Origin: a virus
Direction: 5' to 3' (one strand)
DNA length: 45,243 nt
IMG/VR virus record: IMGVR_UViG_3300033144_003992
Coordinates: 1-45,243 of that record
Numbering within the stretch: the stretch's first letter is position 1; every line of letters begins with the position of its first letter. A model generated the notes under the pieces. The model worked only from the letters and a program-made list of their open reading frames with translations, was not told where the DNA came from and did no database searches. Positions 314 through 39,957 of this stretch are shown piece by piece. Position numbers and translations under genes: made by a program.

Positions 314-1794
314 ATCAAATCCCTCACATTGGTTAACATATCTGCGTTTATGTGTTTCTGTACTAATGCTTCATATATCTTACTATCAACATCAATCTTA
401 GCCGGGACTGGGCACAACAGATCAATGATGTTAACGTGTTTGGTTTGGCCTATGCGATGGGCTCTGTCTTCCGCTTGTACTCTTATTCTGTGGCTGAATG
501 TGTTGCTGTAGAATTGCTCGTTCTCAGCCATTGTAAGCGTGTACCCAGCACCACCACAGGATTGGCTCATGACTAGGTATTCAATTTCCCCCTTCTGGAA
601 AGCGCGTCTGTAATCCTCTCGTTGTTTCTTGTCTACTCTGCCTGTTATTTCACCGATGTTGGATGATTTGGTTATGGACTCTAGCGCCCGGATAATGGCA
701 ATATGCTCTGCTTTATACCGCGCCCAGTAAAGAGTTGGGCCAGGGAAAGCCAGCGTGGTTTCAACTAAAAGGTCTATTTTAGGATTGATACCGGGTATAG
801 CAGTGGCATCCGGGTCATCATCGCTGGGCAGGAATCCTCCTACCACCTGCTGTAGCCTAATTAATTTGGTGAGTACAATGTCGGCTGTTATGAATCGGTC
901 TGCGGTTATCTCTGTGACGATCTGTCGGCAAACGTCCTTATATATACGCATGCCATCCTTAGTGAGAGAGCAAGTGCGCCTGTGCGGTATCTTATCCGGT
1001 AGATCCATACAGTCTGCCTTCTTACAGAAGTATGAAAAGTCCAATAGTTTCTTTTTCAATTCTGTTACATTCTGTGTGCCGGTGATAACGGTAATGCGCC
1101 TTGTATGAATCTTCTTCTTTTGGCGTTTATCGAAGTATGGCTTAACATTGATTACTTTATTTTCCAATGTGCAGTAACGCGCCCGGAAAGAATAGAAGTT
1201 GCTGAAGCCTAGTGGGTTAGGCATTAGGAAATTTAGTTGTGAGAAATAGTCTGACGCTTTACCGTCTGTGGGCGTGCCGGTTAGGATTGTTCTTGCCTTG
1301 GCTTGACGGGCTGCGCCTATGGCACCGATTGTTTGGCTCGCTCGCGGGGTGGCTATGATCTGAGACTCATCGCAAACCATATGGATTCTTTTTCTTTTAA
1401 GCCACCACGTGGCTAGTTTCTTGCCCTTGACTGTTCTTATTGCCTCAATATTCATTATGAGGAATGGCAATTGATCTTCCGGGGCATACATGACTGCTTC
1501 TAGCTTGGCAGCTACTTTCTTTGTTAGCGATGAGTCCCAAATAGCATAGACCGGGTTGACACGGTCTGGACAATGGGTATCAATTTCCTCTGTCCAAGTA
1601 TCCGTAAGAGAGTTGGGACAAAGAACCAGGACACCATCAATCTTATCATTCTCAAAAAGATAGGCTGATCGATCAATTGCTACTTTGGTCTTGCCGGTGC
1701 CTTGCTCCATGAAGTAAGCAGCATACGCAAAGTTCTTGGTCTTGTTAAATGCTTCCAGCTGTTGTGAGTATGGTTCGGTCTTGCCTTGGTACAA
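310..1794 (-). CDS. SNF2-family DNA helicase/ATPase
   Basis: The 494-residue protein carries the superfamily 2 SNF2-type motifs in order: motif I QGTGKT at residues 31-36, motif II DESQ at 142-145, motif III ILTGTP near 170, and motif VI EDRAHRIGQ near 453-461. The AHRIGQ form is typical of SNF2 proteins rather than DEAD-box helicases. It should translocate on double-stranded DNA and could act in replication, repair or DNA remodelling. There is no extra nuclease or targeting domain, and the length is about that of the bare two-lobe motor. The start is a TTG 6 bases after a GAGGAG Shine-Dalgarno sequence; no ATG lies nearby in frame. Upstream lies a structured leader that can pair with that Shine-Dalgarno. 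Confidence 0.93.
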   Translation of the reverse strand: MYQGKTEPYSQQLEAFNKTKNFAYAAYFMEQGTGKTKVAIDRSAYLFENDKIDGVLVLCPNSLTDTWTEEIDTHCPDRVNPVYAIWDSSLTKKVAAKLEAVMYAPEDQLPFLIMNIEAIRTVKGKKLATWWLKRKRIHMVCDESQIIATPRASQTIGAIGAARQAKARTILTGTPTDGKASDYFSQLNFLMPNPLGFSNFYSFRARYCTLENKVINVKPYFDKRQKKKIHTRRITVITGTQNVTELKKKLLDFSYFCKKADCMDLPDKIPHRRTCSLTKDGMRIYKDVCRQIVTEITADRFITADIVLTKLIRLQQVVGGFLPSDDDPDATAIPGINPKIDLLVETTLAFPGPTLYWARYKAEHIAIIRALESITKSSNIGEITGRVDKKQREDYRRAFQKGEIEYLVMSQSCGGAGYTLTMAENEQFYSNTFSHRIRVQAEDRAHRIGQTKHVNIIDLLCPVPAKIDVDSKIYEALVQKHINADMLTNVRDLI

Positions 1795-1910
1795 GCGATT
1801 CTCCTCAGCGACTCCCCAGAGTTAAATCTACACCCGGGAGGCTACGGCACGGATATGTGGCTATGTAGTCTTACTCCCGGGGCAGACTCGCAACGCTGAG
1901 GAGAGTTGCA
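1795..1910 (-). promoter_or_regulatory. Structured 5' leader that can sequester the helicase ribosome binding site
   Basis: Read on the - strand, CTCCTCAGCG (1903-1894) is perfectly complementary to CGCTGAGGAG (1810-1801), which contains the helicase Shine-Dalgarno. Inside this 10-bp closing stem a second helix forms between CTCCC-GGG sequences at 1874-1881 and 1832-1840. The CTCCTC strand can instead sit in the loop of a competing hairpin, GCAAC 1909-1905 with GTTGC 1894-1890. Two mutually exclusive pairings around the ribosome binding site is the layout of a translational switch. The ligand or trigger is unknown; pairing was found by eye, not by folding. Confidence 0.6.
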
Positions 1911-1916
1911 GACTTG

Positions 1917-1945
1917 ATTATGCCCGAGTCTTTAAAGCCCGACAA
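1917..1945 (-). promoter_or_regulatory. Sigma70-like promoter for the helicase operon
   Basis: On the - strand TTGTCG (1945-1940) and CATAAT (1922-1917) are separated by 17 bases, matching 4/6 and 5/6 of the consensus hexamers. The predicted start of transcription, about 1910, falls exactly at the beginning of the structured leader and downstream of the terminator of the preceding operon. That agreement raises confidence above what the hexamers alone would give. Confidence 0.6.
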
Positions 1946-2025
1946 GTATCCTCTTATTTATGGGGTAAAGAAAGTATTTTTTTTGGGTATGTTTATTAGG
2001 CTAAATGCGGTTGTGTTGCTGAAAA

Positions 2026-2081
2026 TCGGTCGCTTGGAATTCGGTCGCTTCAAAAATCGGTCGCTTGGAATTCGGTCGCTT
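2026..2081 (-). repeat. Four-copy direct repeat, core AAGCGACCGA
   Basis: The + strand decamer TCGGTCGCTT occurs at 2026, 2041, 2057 and 2072, spaced 15, 16 and 15 bases. The linkers alternate between GGAAT and CAAAAA types, so the array looks like a duplicated two-unit block. It lies in the non-coding gap between the left operon terminator and the helicase promoter. The same core recurs near 4413 and 6291. It could be an iteron or an array of regulator sites; the function is unknown. Confidence 0.8.
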
Positions 2082-2083
2082 CA

Positions 2084-2109
2084 ATTATACGCGAAATCAA
2101 ATTTGTTAA
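2084..2109 (-). promoter_or_regulatory. Possible weak promoter just upstream of the repeat array
   Basis: On the - strand a perfect TATAAT lies at 2089-2084 immediately before the AAGCGACCGA array. The best -35 candidate, TTAACA at 2109-2104, is only 14 bases away, which is short for sigma70. If active, transcription would run through the repeats toward the helicase. The remainder of the gap (1946-2025) shows no gene. Confidence 0.3.
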
Positions 2110-2130
2110 CGAAAGAAGGGTTTAAGATGT

Positions 2131-2165
2131 AAAAAAAACCCCACGAGCCAATGCCCGTGGGGTTT
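2131..2165 (-). terminator. Rho-independent terminator of the left operon
   Basis: The stem CCCCACG/CGTGGGG (2139-2145 with 2156-2162) has a 10-base loop. Read on the - strand it is followed by eight T residues, the classical intrinsic terminator. It closes the leftward operon that ends with the gene at 2176. Confidence 0.9.
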
Positions 2166-2175
2166 GATTCCTCTC

Positions 2176-2478
2176 TCAGCCAATCACATTCATGCCTTTT
2201 TTCAGATAGTCATATGTGTCCTTGCTTATCTGGGATGAAACAGAATCAATTAAAGCAACTGCTTCTTCACGGCAACAAGACCTCATTTGGTCTTCACCTA
2301 TAGCCTCAGCCTTGCCAATAGCCTCCTCCATAGCAGAATCATGATCATCCTTGCTATAAAAGTCACCAACCACAACACGTTCTGTCAGCTCTTTGGCTGC
2401 TTCAACGAAGTGGGACACATTGATGACGTTCTGTAAGAATGTACAGAGCTCATCATTGCTATGGTTACGGAAGTTCAT
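2176..2478 (-). CDS. Hypothetical acidic phage protein (100 aa)
   Basis: Last gene of the leftward operon, ending 11 bases before the terminator. Its ATG overlaps the stop of the preceding zinc-ribbon-like gene (ATGA), and AAGGAG lies just upstream. The sequence is helical-looking and charged, beginning MNFRNHSNDELCTFLQNVIN, with two adjacent cysteines near residue 68. I do not recognise the family; its position suggests an early accessory protein. Confidence 0.8.
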   Translation of the reverse strand: MNFRNHSNDELCTFLQNVINVSHFVEAAKELTERVVVGDFYSKDDHDSAMEEAIGKAEAIGEDQMRSCCREEAVALIDSVSSQISKDTYDYLKKGMNVIG

Positions 2479-2795
2479 ATTGACTCCTTTGGCGCCATAG
2501 ATGCAATAGCATCCATAACATCATCTGCCATAGCCTGTTCCTTAAACACATCCAGACCAGCTTCTTTATCATGAAACCGTTCAGCCTGTACCAACCAGGT
2601 TTGTGAGTTGGTATTCCAATAAGGCATATTCGTAGGATTATCCAGCCAGTGTTCTGTTAGCCGGGAATCCTCCAATGCTTCTGCCGTACCACACTCGGGA
2701 CAAATATCGGTCTCATTGTCTCTGCGCGATAGGGCTGAATGCCTTGTTATGAAATTATCCTTACACCTTGGACATATGTCTCTGTTAAGGCTCAT
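2475..2795 (-). CDS. Zinc-ribbon-like protein (106 aa)
   Basis: Two CxxC knuckles, CPRC near residues 8-11 and CPEC near 32-35, are spaced as in a small zinc ribbon. The remainder is polar with an acidic C-terminal part. Such proteins often bind nucleic acid or proteins, but no specific family can be named. The start ATG overlaps the preceding stop (TAATG), placing it in a coupled chain with the genes at 2795 and 2176. Confidence 0.8.
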   Translation of the reverse strand: MSLNRDICPRCKDNFITRHSALSRRDNETDICPECGTAEALEDSRLTEHWLDNPTNMPYWNTNSQTWLVQAERFHDKEAGLDVFKEQAMADDVMDAIASMAPKESI

Positions 2796-2986
2796 TACGC
2801 CACTCCTCTTTTGCGGTTATATTCATCAACAGCATCATCAGAGTAGAAACAGTGATATTGCCGCTTTGGATGTAGCCGTTGTAGCTCCGAGGCACGTTTG
2901 ACTGCTTGTTCTGATGTTTCGCATGTCCTAACTGTTTCTGTCCTACCATTCTCAAACTTTCGTTTGACATAATACTCAATAGCCAT
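2795..2986 (-). CDS. Hypothetical small protein (63 aa)
   Basis: The start MAIEYYVKRKF is fixed by the block GAGGAGAGAAAAATG, which recurs before many genes of this operon; longer upstream open frames would read through a hairpin. The protein is basic and rich in aromatic residues (YYV, YHCFY). No family is recognised. It heads a three-gene coupled unit ending at 2176. Confidence 0.8.
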   Translation of the reverse strand: MAIEYYVKRKFENGRTETVRTCETSEQAVKRASELQRLHPKRQYHCFYSDDAVDEYNRKRGVA

Positions 2987-3023
2987 TTTTCTCTCCTCAA
3001 TTACGGATACACAAATTGTATCC
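2987..3023 (-). promoter_or_regulatory. Stem-loop plus conserved ribosome binding block (copy A)
   Basis: The stem ggataca/tgtatcc (3005-3023, loop of 5) lies about 6 bases upstream of GAGGAG at 2998-2993, followed by AGAAAAATG. It belongs to the repeated hairpin-then-GAGGAGAGAAAAATG arrangement of this operon. A weaker second stem, CCCA/TGGG with one mismatch, lies at 3037-3055. Confidence 0.6.
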
Positions 3024-3065
3024 AAGCAACCCACCCCCAATCGTAGCGGATGGGCTGGCTGGATG

Positions 3066-3179
3066 CTACTTTTTGTCGTGGCCGCAACAACCTGGCCCAT
3101 ACATTTGTTTCCCAGATGCCTTCTTCTGAGCATACTTGGAGTTGGAGCCGGTTTCCATTTTCGTAGACCGGCGACGCAT
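3066..3179 (-). CDS. Very small basic protein with CCGH tail (37 aa)
   Basis: A compact open frame starts MRRRSTKMETGSNSKYAQKK and ends in a Gly-Cys-Cys-Gly-His-Asp-Lys-Lys tail. It starts two bases after the stop of the upstream gene, with TAAGG as a ribosome binding site. The strongly basic start and the short non-random sequence look like a genuine mini-protein, possibly nucleic-acid or metal binding. The function is unknown. Confidence 0.65.
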   Translation of the reverse strand: MRRRSTKMETGSNSKYAQKKASGKQMYGPGCCGHDKK

Positions 3180-3183
3180 TACC

Positions 3184-3435
3184 TTACTGCTCTGTTTGTT
3201 GCGCTTCATCTAACTGCTCCTTGATATTATCTCTGGACTTCTCAAGGTGATCCAGAAGTTTCTGTCGATTGAAGCGTGGCGATGTACCTAGCAAATTGCG
3301 AACATGCTGGGTAACGCTACCACGAGAGTGCTTCAAGCCCTGCGCCTCAAGATTGATACAAGCGATCCATTGACACAGTTGGAAATACTCTACCTCAACC
3401 AATTGTTTTTGGAAATTGTAGATCTGGCACCTCAC
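3184..3435 (-). CDS. Hypothetical protein with helical C-terminus (83 aa)
   Basis: The probable start is a GTG overlapping the stop of the upstream gene (GTGA). The middle has an HTH-like length and composition, and the last 30 residues (HLEKSRDNIKEQLDEAQQ) look like a coiled coil. A weak Shine-Dalgarno makes the exact start uncertain; an internal start is possible. No family is recognised. Confidence 0.7.
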   Translation of the reverse strand: MRCQIYNFQKQLVEVEYFQLCQWIACINLEAQGLKHSRGSVTQHVRNLLGTSPRFNRQKLLDHLEKSRDNIKEQLDEAQQTEQ

Positions 3436-3629
3436 TTTATCACCATAACCAAACGATCAGATTGGTACCGGATAGATACTGCCTGACCATTTGCATCTTG
3501 CTTGTTGATATAGCGACCCATGCTTGGACCAAATGAAGCAATCGTGAAATCCTTGTTGGCATCCCAATCTGCTTTAACTGCCTTCATGGACGTATAATTG
3601 CGGCCATATGCCGGTTGTAGTGTAAGCAT
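3432..3629 (-). CDS. Hypothetical small protein (65 aa)
   Basis: The start MLTLQPAYGRNY is set by the GAGGAGAGAAAAATG block. The open frame extends upstream to 3764, but that part would translate two hairpins and part of the neighbouring gene in another frame, so it is excluded. The sequence has a 'GRNYTSMKAVKADWDANKDF' pattern seen in small phage early proteins of unknown function. Coupled to the next gene by a 4-base overlap. Confidence 0.8.
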   Translation of the reverse strand: MLTLQPAYGRNYTSMKAVKADWDANKDFTIASFGPSMGRYINKQDANGQAVSIRYQSDRLVMVIK

Positions 3630-3686
3630 TTTTCTCTCCTCATATTGCGGTGAAAATTCACCAGTGGGCAGTCTCTGACACTGCCC
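3630..3686 (-). promoter_or_regulatory. Double stem-loop plus conserved ribosome binding block (copy B)
   Basis: Two stems precede the GAGGAGAGAAAAATG block: ggtga/tcacc at 3649-3662 and gggcagt/actgccc at 3666-3686 (7 bp, loop of 7). A third, agctga/tcagct at 3688-3703, overlaps the stop codon of the upstream gene. The stem sequences differ completely from the other copies while their position is the same. Confidence 0.65.
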
Positions 3687-3697
3687 TAGCTGAACTC

Positions 3698-3934
3698 TCA
3701 GCTGTGCGTATAGCCATCTGTCTCGATGCCGAGCCACATGCCTGACCACGGTACAAGGATACAATTGCCGCCGAAATACGGCTGTACTGTACGCCTGAAT
3801 TGGCGATAGGACAGATACTTGATCTTATCCGGGTACATGTACCAATAGTCATCCTTAGTTACGGCTGGGTTGGGGATTGGCCTACGGTCAAACACTTCCT
3901 TCAGCGCTACTCTTTGTTCTCTAGTGAGTTTCAT
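3698..3934 (-). CDS. Conserved phage hypothetical protein (78 aa)
   Basis: The sequence MKLTREQRVALKEVFDRRPI then YRQFRRTVQP, VPWSGMWLGI and the ending DGYTHS resembles a small conserved protein I recall from many phages of Gram-negative hosts, often without assigned function. The start has a perfect GGAGGT seven bases upstream. It overlaps the 3' end of the preceding gene by 14 bases in another frame. Confidence 0.85.
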   Translation of the reverse strand: MKLTREQRVALKEVFDRRPIPNPAVTKDDYWYMYPDKIKYLSYRQFRRTVQPYFGGNCILVPWSGMWLGIETDGYTHS

Positions 3935-4325
3935 ATCGCACCTCCGATATGGAGTGTGGGTGACCATCCTCAAACGCCTCCAACGCCAGATCCCGGCTAT
4001 CTGCTTCTGGTTTGTTCGCCGGGAAGTCTAACCAAGTACTGCCTGTGCCTTCGGCATTATCGTAGATGTCGTCGATGACCTTTGTAACAGCATAAAGATT
4101 GGCTGGAACAAGGCTTGATGACGTACTGATTGCGTGGTCGCAATCCATGAACCGTTCACACAACCGCACTTTGCCATCAACTGCGTACTTCTTGATTTCG
4201 TCGATGAATGCTTGCTTATCGGCTAATGCATCACCAGGCTGGCTAATAAAGTCATAACCATTCATCCGACATTTACGCCAGAATGCGTACCAATCTTTCC
4301 TGGCACATCTGTTTATGAGCTTCAT
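3921..4325 (-). CDS. Hypothetical protein (134 aa)
   Basis: The start MKLINRCARKDW overlaps the previous stop (ATGA). The protein has a basic aromatic N-terminus, then a central DCDHAISTSS segment and a C-terminal acidic stretch ending SEVRYETH. The central part resembles small phage proteins of unknown function. It belongs to the same run of early genes; no enzyme motif is visible. Confidence 0.75.
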   Translation of the reverse strand: MKLINRCARKDWYAFWRKCRMNGYDFISQPGDALADKQAFIDEIKKYAVDGKVRLCERFMDCDHAISTSSSLVPANLYAVTKVIDDIYDNAEGTGSTWLDFPANKPEADSRDLALEAFEDGHPHSISEVRYETH

Positions 4326-4549
4326 AACCAATTCCTTCTGCGGCTGGCCAAGGCGATCTTGTTGCGGATGCGATTCTTGCTGCGCCGTTTCGCCATCTGG
4401 GCTGACTTGAAATCGGTCGCTTGAGTTACGGTCGATGCGATTACTGGGTCAGGGCTTGTCCTGGAAGTTGGCATCCCAGTACCAACATTTCTGCTGGGTT
4501 GGGTGAACCAGTTCCTGATCTTATTGAATGCTCTATTCAACGTTCCCAT
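4322..4549 (-). CDS. Basic small protein containing a repeat-derived segment (75 aa)
   Basis: Starts MGTLNRAFNKIRNW after the GAGGAGAGAAAAATG block. The C-terminal third is very basic (AKRRSKNRIRNKIALASRRR), suggesting nucleic-acid binding. In the middle, the AAGCGACCGA repeat is read in frame and gives TQATDFKSA, nearly the same peptide (EATDFQSA) the repeat encodes near 6290. The repeat has therefore been absorbed into coding sequence. Confidence 0.75.
   Translation of the reverse strand: MGTLNRAFNKIRNWFTQPSRNVGTGMPTSRTSPDPVIASTVTQATDFKSAQMAKRRSKNRIRNKIALASRRRNWL
4413..4437 (-). repeat. One and a half copies of the AAGCGACCGA repeat, inside a gene
   Basis: TCGGTCGCTT at 4413-4422 is followed 15 bases later by a decayed copy, ACGGTCGATG at 4428-4437. 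The period matches the arrays at 2026 and 6291. Confidence 0.6.
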
Positions 4550-4616
4550 TTTTCTCTCCTCATATTGGTGCAAAAGCGCACCATATAGGATACTCCCGAT
4601 TTTGGAAATATCCTAT
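4550..4616 (-). promoter_or_regulatory. Double stem-loop plus conserved ribosome binding block (copy C)
   Basis: Stem tggtgc/gcacca at 4566-4583 (6 bp, loop of 6) and an 8-bp perfect stem ataggata/tatcctat at 4585-4616 with a 16-base loop stand directly upstream of GAGGAGAGAAAAATG. Confidence 0.65.
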
Positions 4617-4629
4617 TGGTAGACTCTCC

Positions 4630-4845
4630 TTATTCAATTTTGGCTTCGTAGCTGGTAGCTTCCATAAGGCTTAAAACCATATCATAGGCTTTCTGCCTAG
4701 ACTCTTGCCAATTGCCATCATACCAAGCCATACGACTGCCCTCTGAATCTAACAACTCGATTGATCCATAAGGCTTGTTGAACTTGTTACAAGTGGGCGC
4801 ATCTGCGCGTTGCAGCACAAAGCGAATTGTTGCTGTGATATCCAT
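4630..4845 (-). CDS. Hypothetical small protein (71 aa)
   Basis: Begins MDITATIRFVLQRADAPTCN one base after the stop of the upstream gene and ends before hairpin copy C. It is a mixed alpha/beta-looking sequence with WYDGNW in the middle. Its organisation resembles the upstream 86-residue protein (short beta segment, W-rich centre, helical end), but no family can be named. Confidence 0.75.
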   Translation of the reverse strand: MDITATIRFVLQRADAPTCNKFNKPYGSIELLDSEGSRMAWYDGNWQESRQKAYDMVLSLMEATSYEAKIE

Positions 4846-4846
4846 T

Positions 4847-5107
4847 TCAGTACTCCATCACTGTAGCACTTTCAGGGATAAGGCCAGCGCGTTTTGCTAC
4901 ATCAATGTACGCTTCTTTCTTGTTTTGGAAATAATGACCCCAGTAACAAGTATCATCGGCGTCCATTTCCCAAGTAACGAATTTATCATCATTCCACTTA
5001 GCCACAATCACTGTCCGGTCAACTGTCGTTGTTGCGACATTAGTGGCGACTTCTAATGAGATGATGATCTTGAGCAGGGGTGTTGCCCCATTTTTGAGCT
5101 GTCTCAT
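4847..5107 (-). CDS. Hypothetical protein (86 aa)
   Basis: The start MRQLKNGATPLLKI is set by the GAGGAGAGAAAAATG block. A segment FVTWEMDADDTCYWGHYF is rich in aromatic and acidic residues and is followed by a helical C-terminus (KKEAYIDVAKRAG). The function is unknown. It is directly followed by the 71-residue gene. Confidence 0.78.
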   Translation of the reverse strand: MRQLKNGATPLLKIIISLEVATNVATTTVDRTVIVAKWNDDKFVTWEMDADDTCYWGHYFQNKKEAYIDVAKRAGLIPESATVMEY

Positions 5108-5159
5108 TTTTCTCTCCTCGATGGACAATCCATCATAAAGCCCACTCAGAGAATGGGCT
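5108..5159 (-). promoter_or_regulatory. Double stem-loop plus conserved ribosome binding block (copy D)
   Basis: Stem gatgga/tccatc at 5120-5134 (loop of 3) touches the GAGGAG itself, and a second stem agccca/tgggct lies at 5139-5159 (loop of 9). Confidence 0.65.
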
Positions 5160-5168
5160 GTTGATAGA

Positions 5169-5912
5169 CTACTTTAACGATTGGCGTTCATCTTGGTTGA
5201 TTAGGCGGATACAAACTCTTGCCGTTTCATCCTCTGGCCCATAACCACCGTCGATGTAGCTGCTGAAGGTGGCGTGGCCGTGATACTTGACGTGGCGCCG
5301 AACTAATTGCCTGCCTTTCTTGCTGATGCCGAATGCCCGGTATGCTTCCGGGATAGACTTAAACGTAGTCCATTCTGGAAAGCCCTGCGAGGGGCACATT
5401 GCTTCTACTGCCGCTACAGTCCAGCCTTTCCTGTTTAGTGATTTACGCTTTGGGACTGGTACGCGCTTTGCTGTTGGTGGCGTGTCTTTGTAGACTATGT
5501 ATGCGACTTGGATGCGATGCATCCGGCCTGCTGACCAATCTACGATCTCTGTACCATTCCAGACTAGCACATGGCCACGTACCTTGATCATCACGATCTG
5601 GCCGCCGTAGTATTGAGCCAATTCTCGCTCAACCGTTCTCACCGTTTTGCTGATAAGTTGACGGTGCTGGATCTTGTTACGGTTCCACCCATTAATCGTG
5701 ATGCGGTCGATGGTGTGGCCTTGATCGCGAATGACTGAGTGGTAGTATTTCTCGTGCAGGCCTTTGCCCTTTCTTCTGCCTGCCGCTTTCAGCAAGCTAT
5801 GGGCTTCAGCGTACTCCATACCACAAACCACTGATACGGCGACAACCGTGCAGTCGTTGCCTTCCCTGTAGTCACGCGCATCCTCACGGATGTCCTTATA
5901 ACTCTTTTCCAT
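5169..5912 (-). CDS. Papain/C39-like cysteine peptidase-fold protein (247 aa)
   Basis: The N-terminal half has NDCTVVAVSV with a candidate catalytic Cys21, GHVLVW with His114 and EIVDW with Asp125, the Cys-His-Asp order of papain-like or C39-like peptidases found in phages and plasmids. The start MEKSYKDIRED follows the conserved ribosome binding block; an upstream extension would translate the hairpins. The C-terminal half (about 150-247) is basic and unassigned. It could process a phage or host protein early in infection; no substrate is evident. Peptidase activity is inferred from residues, not shown. Confidence 0.75.
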   Translation of the reverse strand: MEKSYKDIREDARDYREGNDCTVVAVSVVCGMEYAEAHSLLKAAGRRKGKGLHEKYYHSVIRDQGHTIDRITINGWNRNKIQHRQLISKTVRTVERELAQYYGGQIVMIKVRGHVLVWNGTEIVDWSAGRMHRIQVAYIVYKDTPPTAKRVPVPKRKSLNRKGWTVAAVEAMCPSQGFPEWTTFKSIPEAYRAFGISKKGRQLVRRHVKYHGHATFSSYIDGGYGPEDETARVCIRLINQDERQSLK

Positions 5913-5963
5913 TTTTCTCTCCTCTGGGAATGATTCCCAATATGCCCTCCGGAAAGGGCATAT
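5913..5963 (-). promoter_or_regulatory. Double stem-loop plus conserved ribosome binding block (copy E)
   Basis: Stem tgggaa/ttccca at 5925-5939 (loop TGA) and a 9-bp perfect stem atatgccct/agggcatat at 5940-5963 with a 6-base loop, adjacent to the GAGGAGAGAAAAATG of the peptidase-like gene. The first stem's core gggaatgattccc is repeated in copy G. Confidence 0.7.
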
Positions 5964-5968
5964 GGCGA

Positions 5969-6259
5969 TCACTCTGCTACGAAAGTAACCTGAGCTATCC
6001 AGAAACGACAACCTGGATGAGCTGTTGATACGGAAGGCATCGAGAAATTAGCTGATGCTAATTCTAATGGCCCAAGCCCTTCATCGAAACGGATAATGAG
6101 CCCGTCGATGCCTCCCATATCCCCAGCCAGATCACCTAGTACCTGACCGACTGCGGCGTGGAATGCGTCGTAAGACTCATCATCAGTAACTGGTTCCTCC
6201 TTGTCCTTTAAAGTGGTACAAAGGAACTTCTGGTTATAGTGGAACAATATCTTTCGCAT
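5969..6259 (-). CDS. Hypothetical protein (96 aa)
   Basis: The start MRKILFHYNQKFL follows CAGGAGAGACAAATG, a variant of the operon's ribosome binding block. The body is acidic with alternating beta-like segments (DGLIIRFDEGLG) and ends RFWIAQVTFVAE. The reading frame stays open for 65 more codons upstream, through three AAGCGACCGA repeats, to an ATC placed correctly behind an AGGAGAGG; an N-terminally longer protein is therefore possible. No family is recognised. Confidence 0.72.
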   Translation of the reverse strand: MRKILFHYNQKFLCTTLKDKEEPVTDDESYDAFHAAVGQVLGDLAGDMGGIDGLIIRFDEGLGPLELASANFSMPSVSTAHPGCRFWIAQVTFVAE

Positions 6260-6292
6260 TTGTCTCTCCTGATTTTTGGCGGATTGAAAATC
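6260..6292 (-). promoter_or_regulatory. Variant ribosome binding block with weak stem (copy H)
   Basis: CAGGAGAGACAAATG replaces the usual block. An AT-rich stem gatttt/aaaatc (6271-6276 with 6287-6292) occupies the hairpin position, followed upstream by the repeat array. This is the weakest member of the set. Confidence 0.4.
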
Positions 6293-6330
6293 GGTCGCTT
6301 CAATTTCGGTCGCTTCAATTTCGGTCGCTT
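6291..6330 (-). repeat. Three-copy direct repeat, core AAGCGACCGA, 15-bp period
   Basis: TCGGTCGCTT occurs at 6291, 6306 and 6321 with identical 15-base spacing and CAATT linkers. Because 15 is a multiple of three, the open frame reads through it as IEATE-IEATE-IEATD. Just beyond, a 13-base segment (TGATTGTCCACTG) is tandemly repeated near 6341-6365. Confidence 0.8.
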
Positions 6331-6374
6331 CAATTCTGCTCTGATTGTCCACTGATTGTCCACTGACCGGGCTG

Positions 6375-6511
6375 CGTGGTGACTGGAGTGTGAATGTCAC
6401 CACGGAGTCATGAACCCAATACCTAATGGGCTGATGGTTCCTGTGCGAACTGATTTCCTCTCCTAAGCCAGAATTGGCTCTGTAAAGCCACCTAGATGAT
6501 CCTAAGTGGCT
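6375..6511 (-). other. Hairpin cluster with a Shine-Dalgarno but no start codon
   Basis: This 260-base gap (6260-6518) holds the stems agccac/gtggct (6486-6511) and agcca/tggct (6466-6479), then AGGAGAGG at 6464-6457 followed by AAATCAG where other copies have AAATG. Further on, a 9-bp stem cgtggtgac/gtcaccacg lies at 6375-6404. It looks like a hairpin-ribosome-binding-site module whose start codon has been lost or altered to ATC (6454-6452), which is in frame with the gene at 5969. Confidence 0.5.
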
Positions 6512-6518
6512 GTCAGAA

Positions 6519-6767
6519 CTAATCCAGTGATATCAACAGCTCATCCAATTCGATGCCTGTCTCCATCACTACGTGCTCCCAATCATCCTGCTCGGCTGAC
6601 CGAGACCAGACTCCCAGCCCGTAGAAAAGAGCTGGGCCAAACGTAATTGCCGCCCAAGGCAGCCACCCGCCCAAACTCGTTGGGTTGGTCGTCATCGTCA
6701 AGATCCAGGCAAACTGACCGAATGCGTACGTAATGGACGCTAAAATAAAGCCATATACAAAGTTCAT
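6519..6767 (-). CDS. Two-helix membrane protein (82 aa)
   Basis: Hydrophobic segments at about residues 3-25 (VYGFILASITYAFGQFAWIL) and 35-55 (WLPWAAITFGPALFYGLGVW) indicate two transmembrane helices, with an acidic cytoplasmic tail. The start follows the conserved GAGGAGAGAAAAATG block. It is probably an inner-membrane early protein; a superinfection-exclusion role would fit such proteins but is only a guess. Confidence 0.8.
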   Translation of the reverse strand: MNFVYGFILASITYAFGQFAWILTMTTNPTSLGGWLPWAAITFGPALFYGLGVWSRSAEQDDWEHVVMETGIELDELLISLD

Positions 6768-6812
6768 TTTTCTCTCCTCATAGTGGAAAACCCACTAGAA
6801 TGCGCCCGCATT
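6768..6812 (-). promoter_or_regulatory. Double stem-loop plus conserved ribosome binding block (copy F)
   Basis: Stem tagtgg/ccacta at 6781-6797 (loop of 5) and stem aatgc/gcatt at 6799-6812 lie directly before the GAGGAG of the membrane protein gene. The second can also pair with a further cgcatt at 6821-6826. Confidence 0.6.
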
Positions 6813-6835
6813 GGAGCAGACGCATTTGGTGGACT

Positions 6836-7192
6836 TTATACGTAATTGGCTATCTGGTGATTCCTGATTCCGTCAGAACCAGGCTTGTTTACCATTTTCG
6901 TCACGATACCACGAGCCTGCTTACGAGTCTTGACGCCTTCCAGTTTCTCGATCTTGTCGAGGAAAGTGGATACTTTCAGTGTGCGCTTGGAAGCCTTGCA
7001 GAGCAGTTCGTAAGCCAGCCTACGTGGGAAGCCCTTATAGAAATGCTCTTCCTGACCTGCGACTGCCTTGATCTTACGAGTTTCATCCAATTTTGCCTTC
7101 TTTTGGACTTTGGCTGCCGCTTTGGGCTTGGCTGTCTTGGTGGACTTACGCGTGGTCTTTGCTTTTGCCGTTTTTGCTTTAGATGTGGTCAT
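6836..7192 (-). CDS. Histone H1-like, Lys/Ala-rich DNA-binding protein (118 aa)
   Basis: The first 45 residues are a Lys/Ala/Thr tail (MTTSKAKTAKAKTTRKSTK and similar), as in H1-like or AlgP-like nucleoid proteins. Residues 50-118 form a globular-looking domain with FYKGFPRRLAYELL and a basic end. It probably binds DNA or RNA through the tail. The start follows GAGGAGAGAAGTAATG; the ORF's earlier start would translate that ribosome binding site. As the first clear gene of the leftward operon it may act very early. Confidence 0.8.
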   Translation of the reverse strand: MTTSKAKTAKAKTTRKSTKTAKPKAAAKVQKKAKLDETRKIKAVAGQEEHFYKGFPRRLAYELLCKASKRTLKVSTFLDKIEKLEGVKTRKQARGIVTKMVNKPGSDGIRNHQIANYV

Positions 7193-7248
7193 TACTTCTC
7201 TCCTCAATTGGGCAGAAATGCCCCTAGCGTGGTACGGGAATGATTCCC
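7193..7248 (-). promoter_or_regulatory. Double stem-loop plus conserved ribosome binding block (copy G)
   Basis: Stem gggca/tgccc at 7210-7223 with a four-base loop and stem gggaa/ttccc at 7236-7248 precede GAGGAGAGAAGTAATG. The second hairpin shares the 13-base core gggaatgattccc with copy E. Confidence 0.65.
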
Positions 7249-7325
7249 CAATAGCGCCCGGCTGTACGAGCCCAGACGCTACTGGCGATCACTAAGATCA
7301 CAAGGAGAGAGAAAAAATGTTTCAT
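7224..7325 (-). CDS. Possible tiny exported or membrane peptide (33 aa)
   Basis: The frame reads MKHFFSLLVILVIASSVWA followed by a short polar tail, a textbook signal-peptide pattern with a candidate cleavage after the final Ala. It lies just upstream of the histone-like gene. There is no good Shine-Dalgarno, and a competing small frame exists on the other strand, so this is tentative. Confidence 0.4.
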   Translation of the reverse strand: MKHFFSLLVILVIASSVWARTAGRYWGIIPVPR

Positions 7326-7379
7326 CGCGAATTGGCCGTTACCAGCCCATACGATGCGTCTAAACCAGATCCCAGCTAG
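7317..7379 (+). CDS. Possible 20-residue leader peptide
   Basis: AAGGAGAGAGAAAAAATG on the + strand resembles the ribosome binding block used elsewhere, and opens a 20-codon frame starting MFHRELAVTSPYD. It overlaps the start of the - strand peptide at 7224-7325; at most one of the two is likely to be real. It could be a leader for rightward transcription into the 1.6-kb gap. Confidence 0.25.
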   Translation: MFHRELAVTSPYDASKPDPS

Positions 7380-7472
7380 ACTTTCCTTATCCAGCCAGAC
7401 CGCCTGATTGGGTCATATCCATGACTTCGATCCCGGGGAACTGCTCGCATCGCTCGCGATTACTTCTCTGGG

Positions 7473-7564
7473 GCGCGTAATCCTTACGGACGCGCTCACA
7501 CCGGCCAGAGACCCACACCGCAATCGGAGGAGCGGTTAACTCTAGGGCGGGCGTACCTCCCGCC
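7473..7564. other. GC-rich hairpin pair in the control region
   Basis: gcgcgt/acgcgc (7473-7495) can alternatively pair internally as cgtaa/ttacg with a TCC loop. ggcggg/cccgcc (7546-7564) has a 7-base loop. Neither has a T-run on the + strand, so they are not simple terminators. The surrounding 7430-7640 stretch is clearly more GC-rich than its neighbours. Confidence 0.5.
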
Positions 7565-8019
7565 GCACCGGGCTCACGCTACCGGCCACCTCCCGCTTCT
7601 TACGCGCCAAACGGCACTCAGACTACGCGCAGGCTAGAGGTACTTAGAGCCAAAAGCTGGGCTCACCCTGCGATAGAGGTACTATGACCTGTGTGCTAAT
7701 GAAACGCAAACGTGCTGAATTCTCTTTATATATCAACGACTTATACCTGGCCTGATTCCCTGGCGAGATGCAAACTTGCATTATTTTACCGCTCCGGAAA
7801 TAAAAAAAGCGTATAGAAAACAACAGGTTACGAGTGGGAATGACTTATCAAGAATGATTCCTACGCTCCGGGAGGGAGCAATTGATTGGGTAGGTAGTGG
7901 ATATTATTGGTGATCGTATGGGCTGAGGATTGACGAATGGTGATATGGGCTGTAGCCTAGTATGGGGAATAATGTTGGTTGCCCTGGCCTTGTAGAATGC
8001 TTTGGTATTAGTTGGATGT

Positions 8020-8065
8020 GTCTTTGCGGATATGCGCCTCCAAGACTCTAGCAGGCCTATAGCAA
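8020..8065 (+). repeat. 46-bp direct repeat, copy 1
   Basis: Identical over 46 bases to 8150-8195. It contains a possible stem gtctt/aagac enclosing a GC-rich inner loop. Downstream, gcaagac (8062-8068) can pair with gtcttgc (8107-8113) across the spacer. Confidence 0.85.
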
Positions 8066-8149
8066 GACGCGCAAGAATGGGTTGGGCGATGCCCTGGCCG
8101 GGAGTGGTCTTGCTTAGAATCTTGTAGAATGCTTGACTGGGCTAGACTG

Positions 8150-8195
8150 GTCTTTGCGGATATGCGCCTCCAAGACTCTAGCAGGCCTATAGCAA
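8150..8195 (+). repeat. 46-bp direct repeat, copy 2
   Basis: Second copy of the 8020-8065 element, offset 130 bases. A further shared stretch, cttgtagaatgctt, precedes both copies (7989 and 8121), so the duplication was originally longer. Confidence 0.85.
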
Positions 8196-8327
8196 AGTAG
8201 CAAGATGGTGATGGAGATCTGGCCTGGCGATTGCCTTAATGCTTTGTTAGAGACCAATATAACAAAGATCAGCGCGTGTTTAGAATGAGTCTAAATGATC
8301 TGGCCGTGCCTCCCGGAAAAGTGTGTC

Positions 8328-8380
8328 TAAGCTGTTGATTCTATGGGGGTTTCAAAAAAGCCTTATAGAACAACAGCTTA
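8328..8380. other. Long near-perfect hairpin
   Basis: taagctgttg (8328-8337) pairs with caacagctta (8371-8380); after one bulged A, ttctat pairs with atagaa (8339-8344 with 8365-8370). The helix continues through GU, GC and AU pairs with one mismatch to a CAAA loop at 8353-8356. Roughly 24 pairs over 53 bases is far more than chance would give in this region. It could be an RNase III site, a small RNA or a protein-binding site. Confidence 0.75.
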
Positions 8381-8393
8381 GAGCTGAAAGGAT

Positions 8394-8419
8394 GGTGTTC
8401 CTATAGTAGAAGGGACACC
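8394..8419. other. Second stem-loop next to the long hairpin
   Basis: ggtgttcc pairs with gggacacc (one GU) around a 10-base loop. It follows the 8328-8380 hairpin by 13 bases, so the two may form one structured RNA. Confidence 0.5.
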
Positions 8420-8574
8420 GATATGGCCTATATACCTGGGTCTGTTAGGGTTGTAGTGGTTATACAGGGATATTAACAGGTTACAGTGGATATATATTAT
8501 CGTTTGTTAGGAGTCAGTACCGTATCCCGGGCAAGATGGTTCCCCATCACGGATTTTGATTCGGCCTATAGACA

Positions 8575-8601
8575 TTGTCGGTTAACTGTTTGATTTATAA
8601 G
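8575..8601 (+). promoter_or_regulatory. Weak candidate rightward promoter
   Basis: TTGTCG (8575-8580) and TATAAG (8596-8601) are separated by 15 bases, shorter than optimal. The -35 hexamer is the same as in the better promoter at 1945-1917. If active it would read toward the terminase genes. Confidence 0.25.
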
Positions 8602-8822
8602 GGAAAACTGGCATTTTTGGGTCTTTTTGCAAGCAATCCTTGCTCTGCCTGCATATTTCCGGTAGGGTCACACATAACCCCATTTGTTTGTGATCGCACC
8701 TGGCTCCGGTCATCTCCGGCACGATAGCTAGCAAATGAGGATAGAGTCCAGAGGCACTATCCAGTAGGCAATGGGTCTTTGCCGATGCTTCCCGGTACTG
8801 GGGCTGTGGCGAATTGGCTCGA

Positions 8823-8848
8823 TGGAGGAGGGCAGTGGAGGAGGGCAG
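8823..8848 (+). repeat. 13-bp tandem repeat, two copies
   Basis: TGGAGGAGGGCAG is repeated exactly, head to tail. It lies about 150 bases before the terminase small-subunit candidate, where packaging sites are often found. Confidence 0.7.
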
Positions 8849-8885
8849 ATCAAATCAGTTGGATAGGTATCCAATCCATTGCCAC

Positions 8886-8907
8886 CTGGCGCTCGTTCCT
8901 GCGCCAG
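8886..8907. other. Stem-loop before the terminase genes
   Basis: ctggcgc/gcgccag, 7 bp with an 8-base loop. No T-run follows on the + strand. It may shape the late leader or belong to a packaging site. Confidence 0.45.
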
Positions 8908-9003
8908 TTGCAGAGGCTTATATAGTGAAATTATGTGCACCGAGATTTTGAAAAAAGTTCAAACCAAGCAATCTAGTAATTGCTCTAAATCAAAGCCATC
9001 AAC

Positions 9004-9405
9004 GTGAAGAACGTAGTCATCCCATTCCAGCGCAATAAAAAAGTATCAGACTTAAGGACTCACTTAAATGGGCCAGCCTTGCTTGGTTCATTGAGTTCGC
9101 ACCTAAAAGCAATTGGGGCAATAGAAAAAGAACTAGAAAGCAGCATCCAGGATTTTGACCGCGAGATTCTGGATAAAGACGGCGAGGTCATCAGAACAGA
9201 AACCTACAGATCCACAATTCTTGATAAGGAGACCATTGCTGTTTACCATACCAGAATGAATGCCCGGAAGCTGCAGATTGATACGACGCTCAAAATGCTA
9301 AATAAGGTGATGCCAGACCTTAAGGCAATTGAAAACACTGAAGACATAGCCAACGCAGCAGAACGTGCGCTGAGTGCATTCGCACAAGCCGCAGCAGAAG
9401 AATAA
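9004..9405 (+). CDS. Probable terminase small subunit (133 aa)
   Basis: First gene of the rightward block, overlapping the large terminase by one base (TAATG), the usual position of the small subunit. The sequence is largely helical: residues about 30-100 look coiled-coil (GAIEKELESSIQDFDREI), followed by an Ala-rich end. I do not see a clear helix-turn-helix, so the role rests on position. The start is a GTG with no visible Shine-Dalgarno and may be wrong. Confidence 0.65.
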   Translation: MKNVVIPFQRNKKVSDLRTHLNGPALLGSLSSHLKAIGAIEKELESSIQDFDREILDKDGEVIRTETYRSTILDKETIAVYHTRMNARKLQIDTTLKMLNKVMPDLKAIENTEDIANAAERALSAFAQAAAEE

Positions 9406-10934: not shown

Positions 10935-13176
10935 GTTCCTGAAACCAGCGCCAGTTATCACCCCAACAAGATCTGCAATGGGTTGGAGCGAGTCCAAGCT
11001 GTATGGCAATGATTTCCCGAAGTATAACCCGGATGAGTTGATTGGGAGAAAAGGCCACCGTATCTATCGTGACATGATGATTGACGAGCAGGTCAAGGCA
11101 GTCGTCAAGTTTAAGCGCGACGCAATCACTGCGCGTGACTTTACTTTCCGCATGCCGGATGATGGTAGTGTGCCACACAACGAAGAAGCCAAACGCCGCA
11201 TAGACATTTACAACACTATGGTGCGTGAGACTCATGGATCATTTGCGGATGGCATGAACTTTGTGATGATGGCTATGTATCAGGGCTTCTCGATGACTGA
11301 GAAGCTGATTGATACATTTGACTACAAAGGCAAGCCATATCTAGGCATCAAGAAGCTGGTTCCAAAGCCATTTGACACCTTTTCCTTTAAGGTAGACCAA
11401 TATGGCACTATCAAACAGACAATCCAGAAACTCAACACTGAAGAACAAACAATAGACCTTTCCAGGTTCATATACTACGTTCAGAACCCAGAAGCAGATT
11501 ACCATTATGGCCAATCTGAACTCCGGGAAGCATACCGCAGCTGGTATTCTAAAGACATCATCATCCGGCTGTACAATATTTTTCTTGAGAAGTTTGCTGG
11601 CGGGTTAGTTATTGGTAAGCCATCAGCCGGCACTAGCTTAACCCCCGGAACCCCCGATTATAACGCAATGTTGGCTGCTATGGACTCGATTCAAGTTCAA
11701 ACCAGCCTATTACTCCCGGCTAACATCGACGTGGACATAAATCAACCGTCAACCACAGATCAGTACGAGAAGGCAATACAGATGCACGATTTGGGCATTA
11801 GTAAAGCCTTGTTGGTGCCGAACCTGTTGGGCATCACCCCGAGCGCCAACACTGGCGGTTACGCGCAGGCCAATACTCAGTTAGAAGCATTCCTGTGGAC
11901 GTTGGATGCTGATGCTATGCGCTTGGAGGAGGCTCTGAACGAGCAAATCTTTATTCCATTGAGCAAGGTCAACTTTGCAGATGGTATTGGGCCAGTCCTT
12001 AAGTTCAAGCCGGTGTCTGAGACTAAGAAGTTTGAAATTGCTAAGGTCTGGAAGGAATTGGTGGTTGGGGCTGCTGTTGAGGCTAGTGATTCTGATGAGC
12101 ACCACTTACGCGAAATGCTTGACTTCCCGGAGAAAGGTGAGCCATTGGATCTCACGCCCGAGGTTGGCGAACCGGGTGAGGTGCTTCCCGGAACATCACA
12201 ACGCAAGCCTGTAGCCAAGACCAACACCAAAGGCAAGGTGGTTAACAGTGCTGGTTTCGCTAGGGCAGAGAAGCGTGTCAGCTTCAATGTTATAGAAAAG
12301 AAAGCCACCGCGATTGAGAATGAGCGCGTCAAGGCAATTGAATCCAAGATCGTGGAAATGGTCAAGAACATTGTTGAGAGGATTGAGCATGAGAAGTTAG
12401 GTACACCATTCGCCGGCATCAATGGAATCAGCGCCATAGACTTCATCCCACGCCAAAAGAGCAAGGTTCGTAAAGAAATTGACAGCATGCTAACTCAATC
12501 ATGGGCTTTGGGTAAGAAACACGCCACAACCGAGATAAGCAAAGCCCGGAAGGAACAGTTCAAAGTTGATATGGGTCGAATTGACGTTGATGCTGCTGAC
12601 TTCTTGGCTGCTAATGGTTTTCGCATGTTCGGTATGCTTTCAGATGATATGAAGGCAATTATGCAGGGCATATTGATTAATGGCATTAAGTTCAGTTGGA
12701 CTACTAACCAGATCGTATGGAAGTTGTATGATGAGCTAGCTGCTGGCGGGTTTATATCCGCTGAAAGCGCTGCGTTATCTACCGGGCGCACGATAGAACA
12801 AGTGCTAGGGACGATAGGCACAGCCGGGGAAGCCCATAGGCTACACACAGCCGTTAGGACTAATGTGTTTGAGGCTATTAATGAGGCGCGTTTCAGCTTG
12901 TTCACTGATCCTACGCTGGATGGTTTTGTTGAGGCGCTGGAATATTCCGCTATACTCGACTCACGGACTACACGGGTTTGCCGGCACATGGATGACAGGG
13001 TGTATCCAATTGGGGATGAGGTTTGGAATAAACACCGCCCACCGAATCATTTTAACTGCCGGAGCATCTTGATTCCGGTGACTTTGATTGATGAGGACGT
13101 TGAAGGCAAAGATTCAGATGATGGGCGTTGGAGCAAGCCACCGTCCGTTTCACCACAACAAGGCTTTGGAGGTTAG
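10912..13176 (+). CDS. Portal protein (DUF935, Mu gp29-like) fused to a Mu gpF-like head domain
   Basis: Residues about 1-430 match the DUF935 portal type (RDMMIDEQVKAVVKFKRDAI, LGITPSANTGGYAQANTQLE). After a linker, residues about 480-754 end in the gpF/SPP1 gp7 signature: AILDSRTTRVCRHMD, then HRPPNHFNCRS. In Mu these are two genes; here one frame carries both. The dodecameric portal would thus bring its minor head protein along. The start ATG at 10912 follows GGAGAG by 8 bases; a second ATG is adjacent. No stop or frameshift separates the halves. Confidence 0.93.
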   Translation: MMPQFLTKFLKPAPVITPTRSAMGWSESKLYGNDFPKYNPDELIGRKGHRIYRDMMIDEQVKAVVKFKRDAITARDFTFRMPDDGSVPHNEEAKRRIDIYNTMVRETHGSFADGMNFVMMAMYQGFSMTEKLIDTFDYKGKPYLGIKKLVPKPFDTFSFKVDQYGTIKQTIQKLNTEEQTIDLSRFIYYVQNPEADYHYGQSELREAYRSWYSKDIIIRLYNIFLEKFAGGLVIGKPSAGTSLTPGTPDYNAMLAAMDSIQVQTSLLLPANIDVDINQPSTTDQYEKAIQMHDLGISKALLVPNLLGITPSANTGGYAQANTQLEAFLWTLDADAMRLEEALNEQIFIPLSKVNFADGIGPVLKFKPVSETKKFEIAKVWKELVVGAAVEASDSDEHHLREMLDFPEKGEPLDLTPEVGEPGEVLPGTSQRKPVAKTNTKGKVVNSAGFARAEKRVSFNVIEKKATAIENERVKAIESKIVEMVKNIVERIEHEKLGTPFAGINGISAIDFIPRQKSKVRKEIDSMLTQSWALGKKHATTEISKARKEQFKVDMGRIDVDAADFLAANGFRMFGMLSDDMKAIMQGILINGIKFSWTTNQIVWKLYDELAAGGFISAESAALSTGRTIEQVLGTIGTAGEAHRLHTAVRTNVFEAINEARFSLFTDPTLDGFVEALEYSAILDSRTTRVCRHMDDRVYPIGDEVWNKHRPPNHFNCRSILIPVTLIDEDVEGKDSDDGRWSKPPSVSPQQGFGG

Positions 13177-16312: not shown

Positions 16313-16334
16313 TTTCACAATACGTGTTGTGAAA
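16313..16334 (+). promoter_or_regulatory. Stem-loop placed directly before a ribosome binding site
   Basis: tttcacaa/ttgtgaaa is a perfect 8-bp stem with a 6-base loop, immediately followed by GGAGAGTGACATG. The arrangement mirrors the hairpin-ribosome-binding modules of the left operon, here on the + strand. Confidence 0.65.
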
Positions 16335-16344
16335 GGAGAGTGAC

Positions 16345-16539
16345 ATGTTGATACCAGTTGGATTGAAAGGGAAAGAGCGGGATGCTTATGTTAAACGCCA
16401 CACCCATCAAATTCGTAATGTAAATGCTGGGCCAAAGCCCGGGTTACGACCAGTAGGCAAAAAAGCTGAAGGAGCGAAGAAAAGTGCTAAGACCTTTAGA
16501 CAGAACAAACGGCAAACGCCAACCGCGTCAGCTGAATGA
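16345..16539 (+). CDS. Small very basic protein (64 aa)
   Basis: Begins MLIPVGLKGKERDAYVKRHT after GGAGAG and is rich in Lys, Arg and Pro with no acidic core (PKPGLRPVGKKAEGAKKSAK). It may bind nucleic acid or capsid. It is the first gene after the capsid terminator. No family is recognised. Confidence 0.75.
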   Translation: MLIPVGLKGKERDAYVKRHTHQIRNVNAGPKPGLRPVGKKAEGAKKSAKTFRQNKRQTPTASAE

Positions 16540-39785: not shown

Positions 39786-39957
39786 CTGGTCCAATCTCCA
39801 TTACTATTTCATCACCAACTTTTAAGTGTGCAACATCACCATTCCACTTCGCTGATAGCAGGGTTTTGTCCCCGTTAGGCTTAACAGCCTCCATAAAGAA
39901 TCTAAAATCATTCTTAGCGATCCGTTGAACGGTCACTCTCAGTCTAGTTGCTTCCAT
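39778..39957 (-). CDS. Hypothetical small protein (59 aa)
   Basis: Starts MEATRLRVTVQRIAKNDFRF inside the 3' end of the polymerase gene (14-base overlap). It has a beta-rich pattern (RFFMEAVKPNGDKTLLSAKW, VGDEIVMEI) that could be a small OB-like fold. It may belong to the replicase. No family can be fixed. Confidence 0.7.
   Translation of the reverse strand: MEATRLRVTVQRIAKNDFRFFMEAVKPNGDKTLLSAKWNGDVAHLKVGDEIVMEIGPDG

Follow-up and report, generated by a model that had tools for sequence, protein, structure and literature searches.

A module with two alternative RNA folds at the spaced gene junctions of a phage early operon

The stretch of DNA analyzed here, called the window, covers the 45,243 bases of the tailed phage record IMGVR_UViG_3300033144_003992. 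Its early operon is located on the minus strand, extends from approximately position 7192 to an intrinsic terminator and comprises about 15 small genes, mostly without a known family. An RNA module of approximately 75 nucleotides (nt) was found at six of the seven spaced gene junctions of the window, and at none of its seven junctions where genes overlap or lie 1 nt apart. The six junctions have gaps of 56–80 nt and belong to this single operon. Sigma-70-like promoters in 1900–9400 were not more frequent than in shuffled sequences, giving no sign of internal promoters.

A sequence-only reading of the window had claimed that at least seven starts of this operon share a sequence and that each is preceded by hairpins. 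Both claims were borne out. The Shine-Dalgarno (SD) string GAGGAGAGAAAAATG is repeated exactly at six starts, always on the minus strand and nowhere else in the record (reversed control pattern: no occurrence in the record), and a seventh start, 7192, carries a variant. A short hairpin ends 1–9 nt before GGAGAG at all seven starts; the hairpins are, thus, slightly closer than the proposed 5–10 bases. Folding z-scores of the 60 nt before GGAGAG averaged −3.4 over 27 sites from three phages, with 22 of them below −2, compared to +0.05 for the late starts of the window (n = 31). The difference between early sites and all control starts is significant (Mann-Whitney p of 4e-10).

The module consists of four parts, i.e., (1) a strand beginning at the stop codon with which the preceding gene ends, (2) a first hairpin (HP1), (3) a segment with two pairing choices, and (4) the SD. 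The third part pairs either back with the stop-codon strand or forward into a second hairpin (HP2), and the partners of the stop-codon strand are the 5′ arm and loop of HP2, which results in two mutually exclusive folds. The long fold is an irregular hairpin of about 20 base pairs (bp) with an asymmetric internal loop, and the alternative is HP1 followed by HP2. HP1 has 7–14 bp, lies about 17–25 nt before the SD and is stable as a stem in almost every module; HP2 has mostly 5–8 bp and often the loop RUUYY. The stems quoted in the sequence-only reading do exist, but they are of two kinds, since ataggata/tatcctat and atatgccct/agggcatat are HP1 stems and tagtgg/ccacta is an HP2 stem. Neither the stop-codon strand nor the two alternative folds had been reported there, nor the start at 6259, the seventh spaced junction, which has an SD without a hairpin. 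The leader of the first operon gene has no gene upstream and does not contain the full module. A further copy had been proposed on the plus strand at 16313-16334. At 16313-16345, behind the major head protein gene, a perfect 8–9 bp hairpin indeed abuts GGAGAGTGACATG; this single hairpin lacks HP1, the stop-codon strand and a second fold and is, therefore, not the same module.

Table 1. Coordinates of the modules and other features of the window. Modules 1–6 are based on repeat search, folding, strand pairing, covariance model, detector and stop position. SD + ATG, segment with the exact copy of GAGGAGAGAAAAATG; E, covariance-model value; z, folding z-score.
Feature	Start	Position	Strand	Details
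Module 1, genes 6836-7192 / 6519-6767	6767	6765-6842	-	5′ strand 6827-6842 (stop TAA 6836-6838); HP1 6799-6826; HP2 6781-6797; SD + ATG 6765-6779; repeat, folds, detector, covariance model (match 6786-6839, E 5e-9, training member)
Module 2, junction 5969-6259 / 5169-5912	5912	5910-5979	-	5′ strand 5964-5979; stop TGA within lower stem; HP1 5940-5963; HP2 5925-5939; SD + ATG 5910-5924
Module 3, junction 5169-5912 / 4847-5107	5107	5105-5175	-	5′ strand 5160-5175 with stop TAG; HP1 5139-5159; HP2 5120-5134; SD + ATG 5105-5119
Module 4, junction 4630-4845 / 4322-4549	4549	4547-4632	-	5′ strand 4617-4632 with stop TAA; HP1 4585-4616; HP2 4566-4583; SD + ATG 4547-4561
Module 5, junction 3698-3934 / 3432-3629	3629	3627-3702	-	5′ strand 3687-3702 with stop TGA; HP1 3666-3686; HP2 3648-3663; SD + ATG 3627-3641
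Module 6, junction 3066-3209 / 2795-2986	2986	2984-3073	-	5′ strand 3058-3073 with stop TAG; HP1 3027-3057; HP2 3004-3024; SD + ATG 2984-2998; E 0.02
Leader of first operon gene	7192	7190-7250	-	two hairpins; variant SD GAGGAGAGAAGTAATG (at 7203); z −0.4
Exception without hairpin	6259	6257-6340	-	variant SD AGGAGAGACAAATG (at 6269) after direct repeats TTGAAGCGACCGAAA in place of hairpins; z +0.15
Operon-end intrinsic terminator		2136-2165	-	13-bp stem and T run
Helicase		310-1794
Terminase large subunit		9405
Portal		10885
Major head protein		15269
Tape measure protein		28347
DnaE-like DNA polymerase		39944-42862

Two mutually exclusive folds

The orthologous operon was detected in two IMG/VR contigs, L138 (IMGVR_UViG_3300033388_001133; polymerase 76% and helicase 61–62% identical) and L140 (IMGVR_UViG_3300033144_009790; helicase 64% and terminase 70% identical). 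The same arrangement is present at 10 starts in L138 and 9 in L140, in front of orthologous as well as other genes, and the stems differ. For instance, HP2 of the gene starting at 6767 has the stem TAGTGG/CCACTA in the window, AAGCGAA/TTCGCTT in L138 and GATGG/CCATC in L140. A covariance model recovered all training members and two more L138 modules (E of 1.4e-5 and 3.1e-5); a third L138 candidate at 6289-6340 reached an E of only 0.61, and no significant match was found in late regions, including those of the window. A close DNA relative of the record was not present in the phage collection, nor was a counterpart of the early gene family 3921-4331, and a protein scan of IMG/VR with the early gene 5169-5912 had zero matches.

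Since HP1 and HP2 were chosen without regard to the stop-codon strand, the pairing of this strand is an independent test. The stop-codon strand pairs with its own module at −8.34 kcal/mol on average compared to −5.40 kcal/mol for other modules (permutation p < 5e-5, also within genomes). Lower and upper stem of the long hairpin together have on average 19.4 bp (range 13–25; 21 modules, three phages), and the internal loop is longer on the 3′ side in 19 of these 21 modules, mostly by one nt. In the three relatives, the mean energy difference between the two folds is 0.65 kcal/mol in favour of HP1 plus HP2 (range −2.7 to +3.4, totals about −22; 21 modules).

Covariation shows that both folds are conserved. 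In an alignment of 20 modules from the three phages, where modules of one genome are not independent, 80.4% of the cells are paired across the 19 pairs of the long hairpin compared to 60.2% in shuffles, and the covariation score of 0.594 (shuffles: 0.251) was reached by none of 500 shuffles. When the partner strand was slid by 1–3 columns, the score was at most 0.222. The lower stem alone is paired in 73.7% compared to 60.1%, with a score of 0.423 compared to 0.205 (0/500 shuffles). For HP2, 13 modules of the 5-5-5 form are 100% paired (shuffles: 53.6%) with a score of 1.292 (shuffles: 0.302; 0/500), although this pairing figure is an upper bound, as these modules were selected as hairpins. 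The sequence-only reading had proposed that structure rather than sequence is selected, and had named a lack of covariation in related phages as the observation that would speak against it. The strong covariation found supports selection on RNA structure rather than sequence.

The kind of mismatch tolerated in the stems points to RNA as well. With a scoring symmetric for G·U and A·C, the stems contain 38 G·U and 3 A·C; in fixed alignment columns, 59 G·U and 12 A·C were counted where column make-up predicts 78 and 32, and composition therefore explains part of the G·U excess. This excess of wobbles on the sense strand, together with an orientation that is always that of transcription, speaks against a DNA-level element, i.e., an operator, a recombination boundary or a cruciform which shuffles small genes. 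Near-identical HP1 copies at four junctions of L140 look as if modules had spread and would agree with such an element. However, the stem sequence is not conserved, unlike that of protein-binding repeats, and we disfavour a DNA-level element as very improbable.

The SD is hidden in neither of the two folds, and its accessibility shows a small gain (0.604 compared to 0.538, p of 0.012). This argues against a simple on/off switch, and insulation of the SD as the sole purpose was rejected because the gain is too small. For the same reason, and because the module is confined to spaced early junctions, a phage-wide translation enhancer, one of three functions suggested by the sequence-only reading, fits worse. 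The other two, processing sites and 5′-end protection, probably match the anatomy best.

Recurrence in other phages and known systems

A detector for the full design was written as our own script. In the window, it found seven matches, covering the six modules, compared to 0.4 expected from shuffles, and eight (0 expected) and six (0.2 expected) in L138 and L140, respectively. Since the thresholds had been set on the three relatives, the contigs L194 and L307 are out-of-sample tests. The 57.7-kb phage L307 has 12 modules in one operon and the AT-rich contig L194 has five, with 0 expected in both cases. Thus, the design recurs in unrelated phages, mostly with a different SD. Two or more modules each, of mixed quality, were detected in L205, L213, L305 and L217. 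Among 1601 start sites of further contigs, 24 matches were obtained (3 expected), of which the operon of L307 accounts for 12; in the first 223 loci, excluding the three relatives, the excess was modest (53 compared to 29.5 expected) and concentrated in these few contigs. The cultured phages VA-RY-3, Ss1, HTVC023P, DSL-LC04, VP2 and Bas98, which share distant replication proteins with the record, and phage lambda have zero or one match each. No match above the gathering threshold of Rfam was obtained for positions 1500–9300 of the window, L138, L140 and L194.

As a marker on its own, GAGGAGAGAAAAATG was rejected: it occurs in at least 120 IMG/VR contigs, of which about one third have a weak hairpin nearby, mostly by chance. 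Extended by one base, the string occurs in 92 contigs, and several copies are present only in the two relatives. The contig G014 was rejected too; it has four clustered near-copies of the SD, but such hairpins are absent.

The long fold is the more stable one in L194, by 1.5–5 kcal/mol, and reading the sequence revealed six junctions where TAA lies at the lower-stem strand or immediately in front of it. At several junctions in L194 4313-6660, a T run follows HP2, which could therefore double as a weak terminator there. Such T runs are what an attenuator with HP2 as terminator and the lower stem as antiterminator would have. In the window and its relatives, HP2 is followed by GAGGAGAG instead of T, so that the hairpin plus U run of an intrinsic terminator or attenuator is not found for HP2 in the window, and the terminator-like sites detected include no module hairpin but only the operon end. 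We regard an attenuator as highly improbable. Single-stranded hairpin promoters of the N4 type were rejected, as no protein has the size of a virion RNA polymerase (longest open reading frame 986 amino acids) and the hairpins are tied to the SD.

Among known systems, the early RNase III sites of phage T7 are the closest in form. R1.1, located between genes 1.0 and 1.1, has a length of 60 nt, and its internal loop is asymmetric with 4/5 nt (PMC6121014). The leaders of T7 genes 0.3, 0.5, 1 and 1.3 fold into a lower stem, a small internal loop and an upper stem, with U·G pairs and a GAGUGG-like 3′ arm. R0.3, R0.5, R1, R1.1 and R1.3 resemble the module in their intergenic position in an early polycistronic operon, in the irregular hairpin (about 20 bp in the module) with an asymmetric internal loop, in U·G pairs and the GAGUGG-like 3′ arm, and in the short distance to the next start. 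Unlike the T7 sites, the module stands at six of seven spaced junctions with a stop codon at or in the lower stem. Further, HP2 shares the 3′ strand of the long hairpin, an arrangement absent in T7, and the module is consequently a variant rather than a plain member of the T7-type signals.

In Cluster K mycobacteriophages and Cluster EF Microbacterium phages, some of the non-structural genes have an extended ribosome-binding site of conserved sequence, and conserved repeats lie upstream of it in the intergenic gaps; these start-associated sequences are known as SAS/ESAS (PMC3203893, PMC7302621). The exact 15-nt repeat at six starts of the window is alike in this respect. However, the authors of the Cluster K study found little support for RNA hairpins at ESAS, where the repeat sequence is conserved; the module shows the opposite, with varying sequence and covarying pairing. 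Short inverted repeats are also present in Cluster O mycobacteriophages and Cluster EG Microbacterium phages (in the latter, 14–22 bp upstream of starts), but these are invariant palindromes as for a DNA-binding protein, and no upper hairpin or stop-codon strand has been described.

A further comparison, with the sites of the T4 nuclease RegB, concerns the SD itself. Its near invariance over 8–15 nt and the many RUUYY loops of HP2 would suit a binding or cutting site for an RNA-directed protein of phage or host, e.g., a translational repressor or a RegB-like nuclease acting at the invariant GGAGAGAAAA; the hairpins would then serve to present the site. Strong RegB sites have the form GG*AGRAYARAA and, like the module, combine a GGAG SD of early genes with an A-rich stretch behind it (PMC3014915); they have no hairpin requirement, and GGAGAGAAAAA agrees with the RegB consensus GGAGRAYARAA only at GGAG and in the A-rich tail. 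The loop consensus is partly due to pairing with the stop-codon strand, each unrelated phage with the design has a different SD, and no known RNA regulator was found among the left-end proteins searched. A protein site of this kind is quite improbable.

A candidate processing element

The small genes strung together in the early operons of tailed phages are of unknown function, and it is an old question how a single transcript provides each of them with its own expression level. The RNase III sites of T7 are the textbook answer, given for one phage group. We favour, with about an even chance of being right, the view that the module serves in RNA processing between cistrons, in the manner of the T7 early sites, and that an end-capping refold has been added to it. 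In the polycistronic early mRNA, the stop-codon strand would pair with the segment just after HP1, and the resulting long hairpin would be shaped like the RNase III sites of T7. We infer that host RNase III is the enzyme and that it cleaves the internal loop on its 3′ side, within the short linker between HP1 and HP2. The upstream mRNA would then retain HP1 as a 3′-terminal barrier, while on the downstream mRNA the freed segment and the following nucleotides could refold into HP2 as a 5′-terminal cap 1–9 nt before GAGGAGAGAAAAATG, with presumed effects on mRNA life and translation. A cut at this place leaves HP1 upstream and frees the HP2 strand, which would account for both folds being kept.

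Several points weigh against this view. As the long fold is not clearly favoured in the three relatives, the uncut precursor would be a mixture of folds. Some lower stems are short, with 4–6 bp, and the T7 sites have no downstream hairpin using the lower-stem strand (detector: 0 matches). The stop codon beside the stem could simply reflect compact genomes. Moreover, detector and alignments were built from modules selected for structure, a bias which shuffles and slides remove only partly.

The place of the stop codon makes a termination-gated switch the main rival, which we consider possible but doubtful. A ribosome at the upstream stop would cover the lower-stem strand but not HP1, so that HP2 forms; once the ribosome has gone, the long hairpin can form. 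The fold beside the SD would thereby report completed upstream translation and tune the downstream start, mRNA cutting or the access of Rho. In 43 of 49 modules from nine phage sets, the preceding gene has its stop codon 6–21 nt before HP1, mostly 9–16 nt, and the front edge of a terminating ribosome lies about 13 nt from the stop according to toeprints. The near-equal energies of the two folds also suit a switch. On the other hand, an SD that is free in both folds leaves the switch without a clear output, and a compact genome would also be expected to place a stop right before the stem. As a wider claim, put forward tentatively, the modules may represent a class of bistable intercistronic RNAs that recurs in tailed phages and is gated by the ribosome terminating upstream. 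If this gated reading is true, every spaced junction in an operon of small genes would detect that translation upstream has been completed and would determine what happens to the next gene, be it cutting, capping or initiation.

Hairpins may also protect mRNA ends without any cutting at the module. HP1 and HP2 would in this case be exonuclease barriers which shield decay intermediates, REP-like at the 3′ end and ompA-like at the 5′ end, and the lower-stem pairing would be secondary. The stability of HP1 in nearly all modules and the closeness of HP2 to the SD are in line with this, but the covarying pairing of the stop-codon strand and the n/(n+1) internal loop are left unexplained, and we judge barriers of this kind unlikely.

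A search of an open-licence collection, which covers only a minority of subscription journals, found no account of the design. A structure-defined element at nearly every spaced junction, which recurs elsewhere, makes processing or gating at junctions a general and testable matter. As the exclusive folds share one strand and one fold includes the stop codon, targets for mutation follow directly from the design. The design can also serve as a search rule in the annotation of phage operons, and the module is a potential part for independent genes within a synthetic operon.

Further features of the region and its relatives

Repeats that share the core CGGTCGCTTSAA (AGCGACCG on the minus strand) are dispersed over the window at 2035-2090, 4400-4442 and 6278-6335 and in L138 at 7270-7420 and approximately 11670. 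They precede the start without module at 6259, occur at the matching place in L138 and also after the operon terminator, and are possibly binding sites or iterons. The region between early operon and terminase is largely non-coding and contains a 46-nt perfect direct repeat (8020-8065 and 8150-8195).

Two SD copies in L138 lack a gene or an ATG. At approximately 11563-11615, the last operon gene is followed by GAGGAGAGAAAAAAG and then by a strong intrinsic terminator, i.e., an SD without gene, and at approximately 7127 there is a second, degenerate SD copy without ATG.

At the end of the record, 44880-45224 (minus strand) matches the C-terminal part of ThyX (Thy1) and is truncated where the record stops. 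The helicase is located upstream of the ThyX gene in the relative L138/L008; hence, the record looks permuted or incomplete at its ThyX end.

In L138, the dinucleotides CA and TG are nearly absent from 4501-7260 (observed/expected about 0.02 over approximately 2.5 kb). The remaining TGs are mostly within ATG starts, the depleted stretch contains intact conserved open reading frames, and CA/TG then recover in a gradient within the following 2 kb of the early operon. This looks like avoidance of the double-strand CA/TG step, perhaps near the genome end that enters the cell first. In a second relative, L144, CA/TG fall to 0.12 in 1-1000, just upstream of the terminase, and the window shows a mere dip to 0.93 at 7001-8000.

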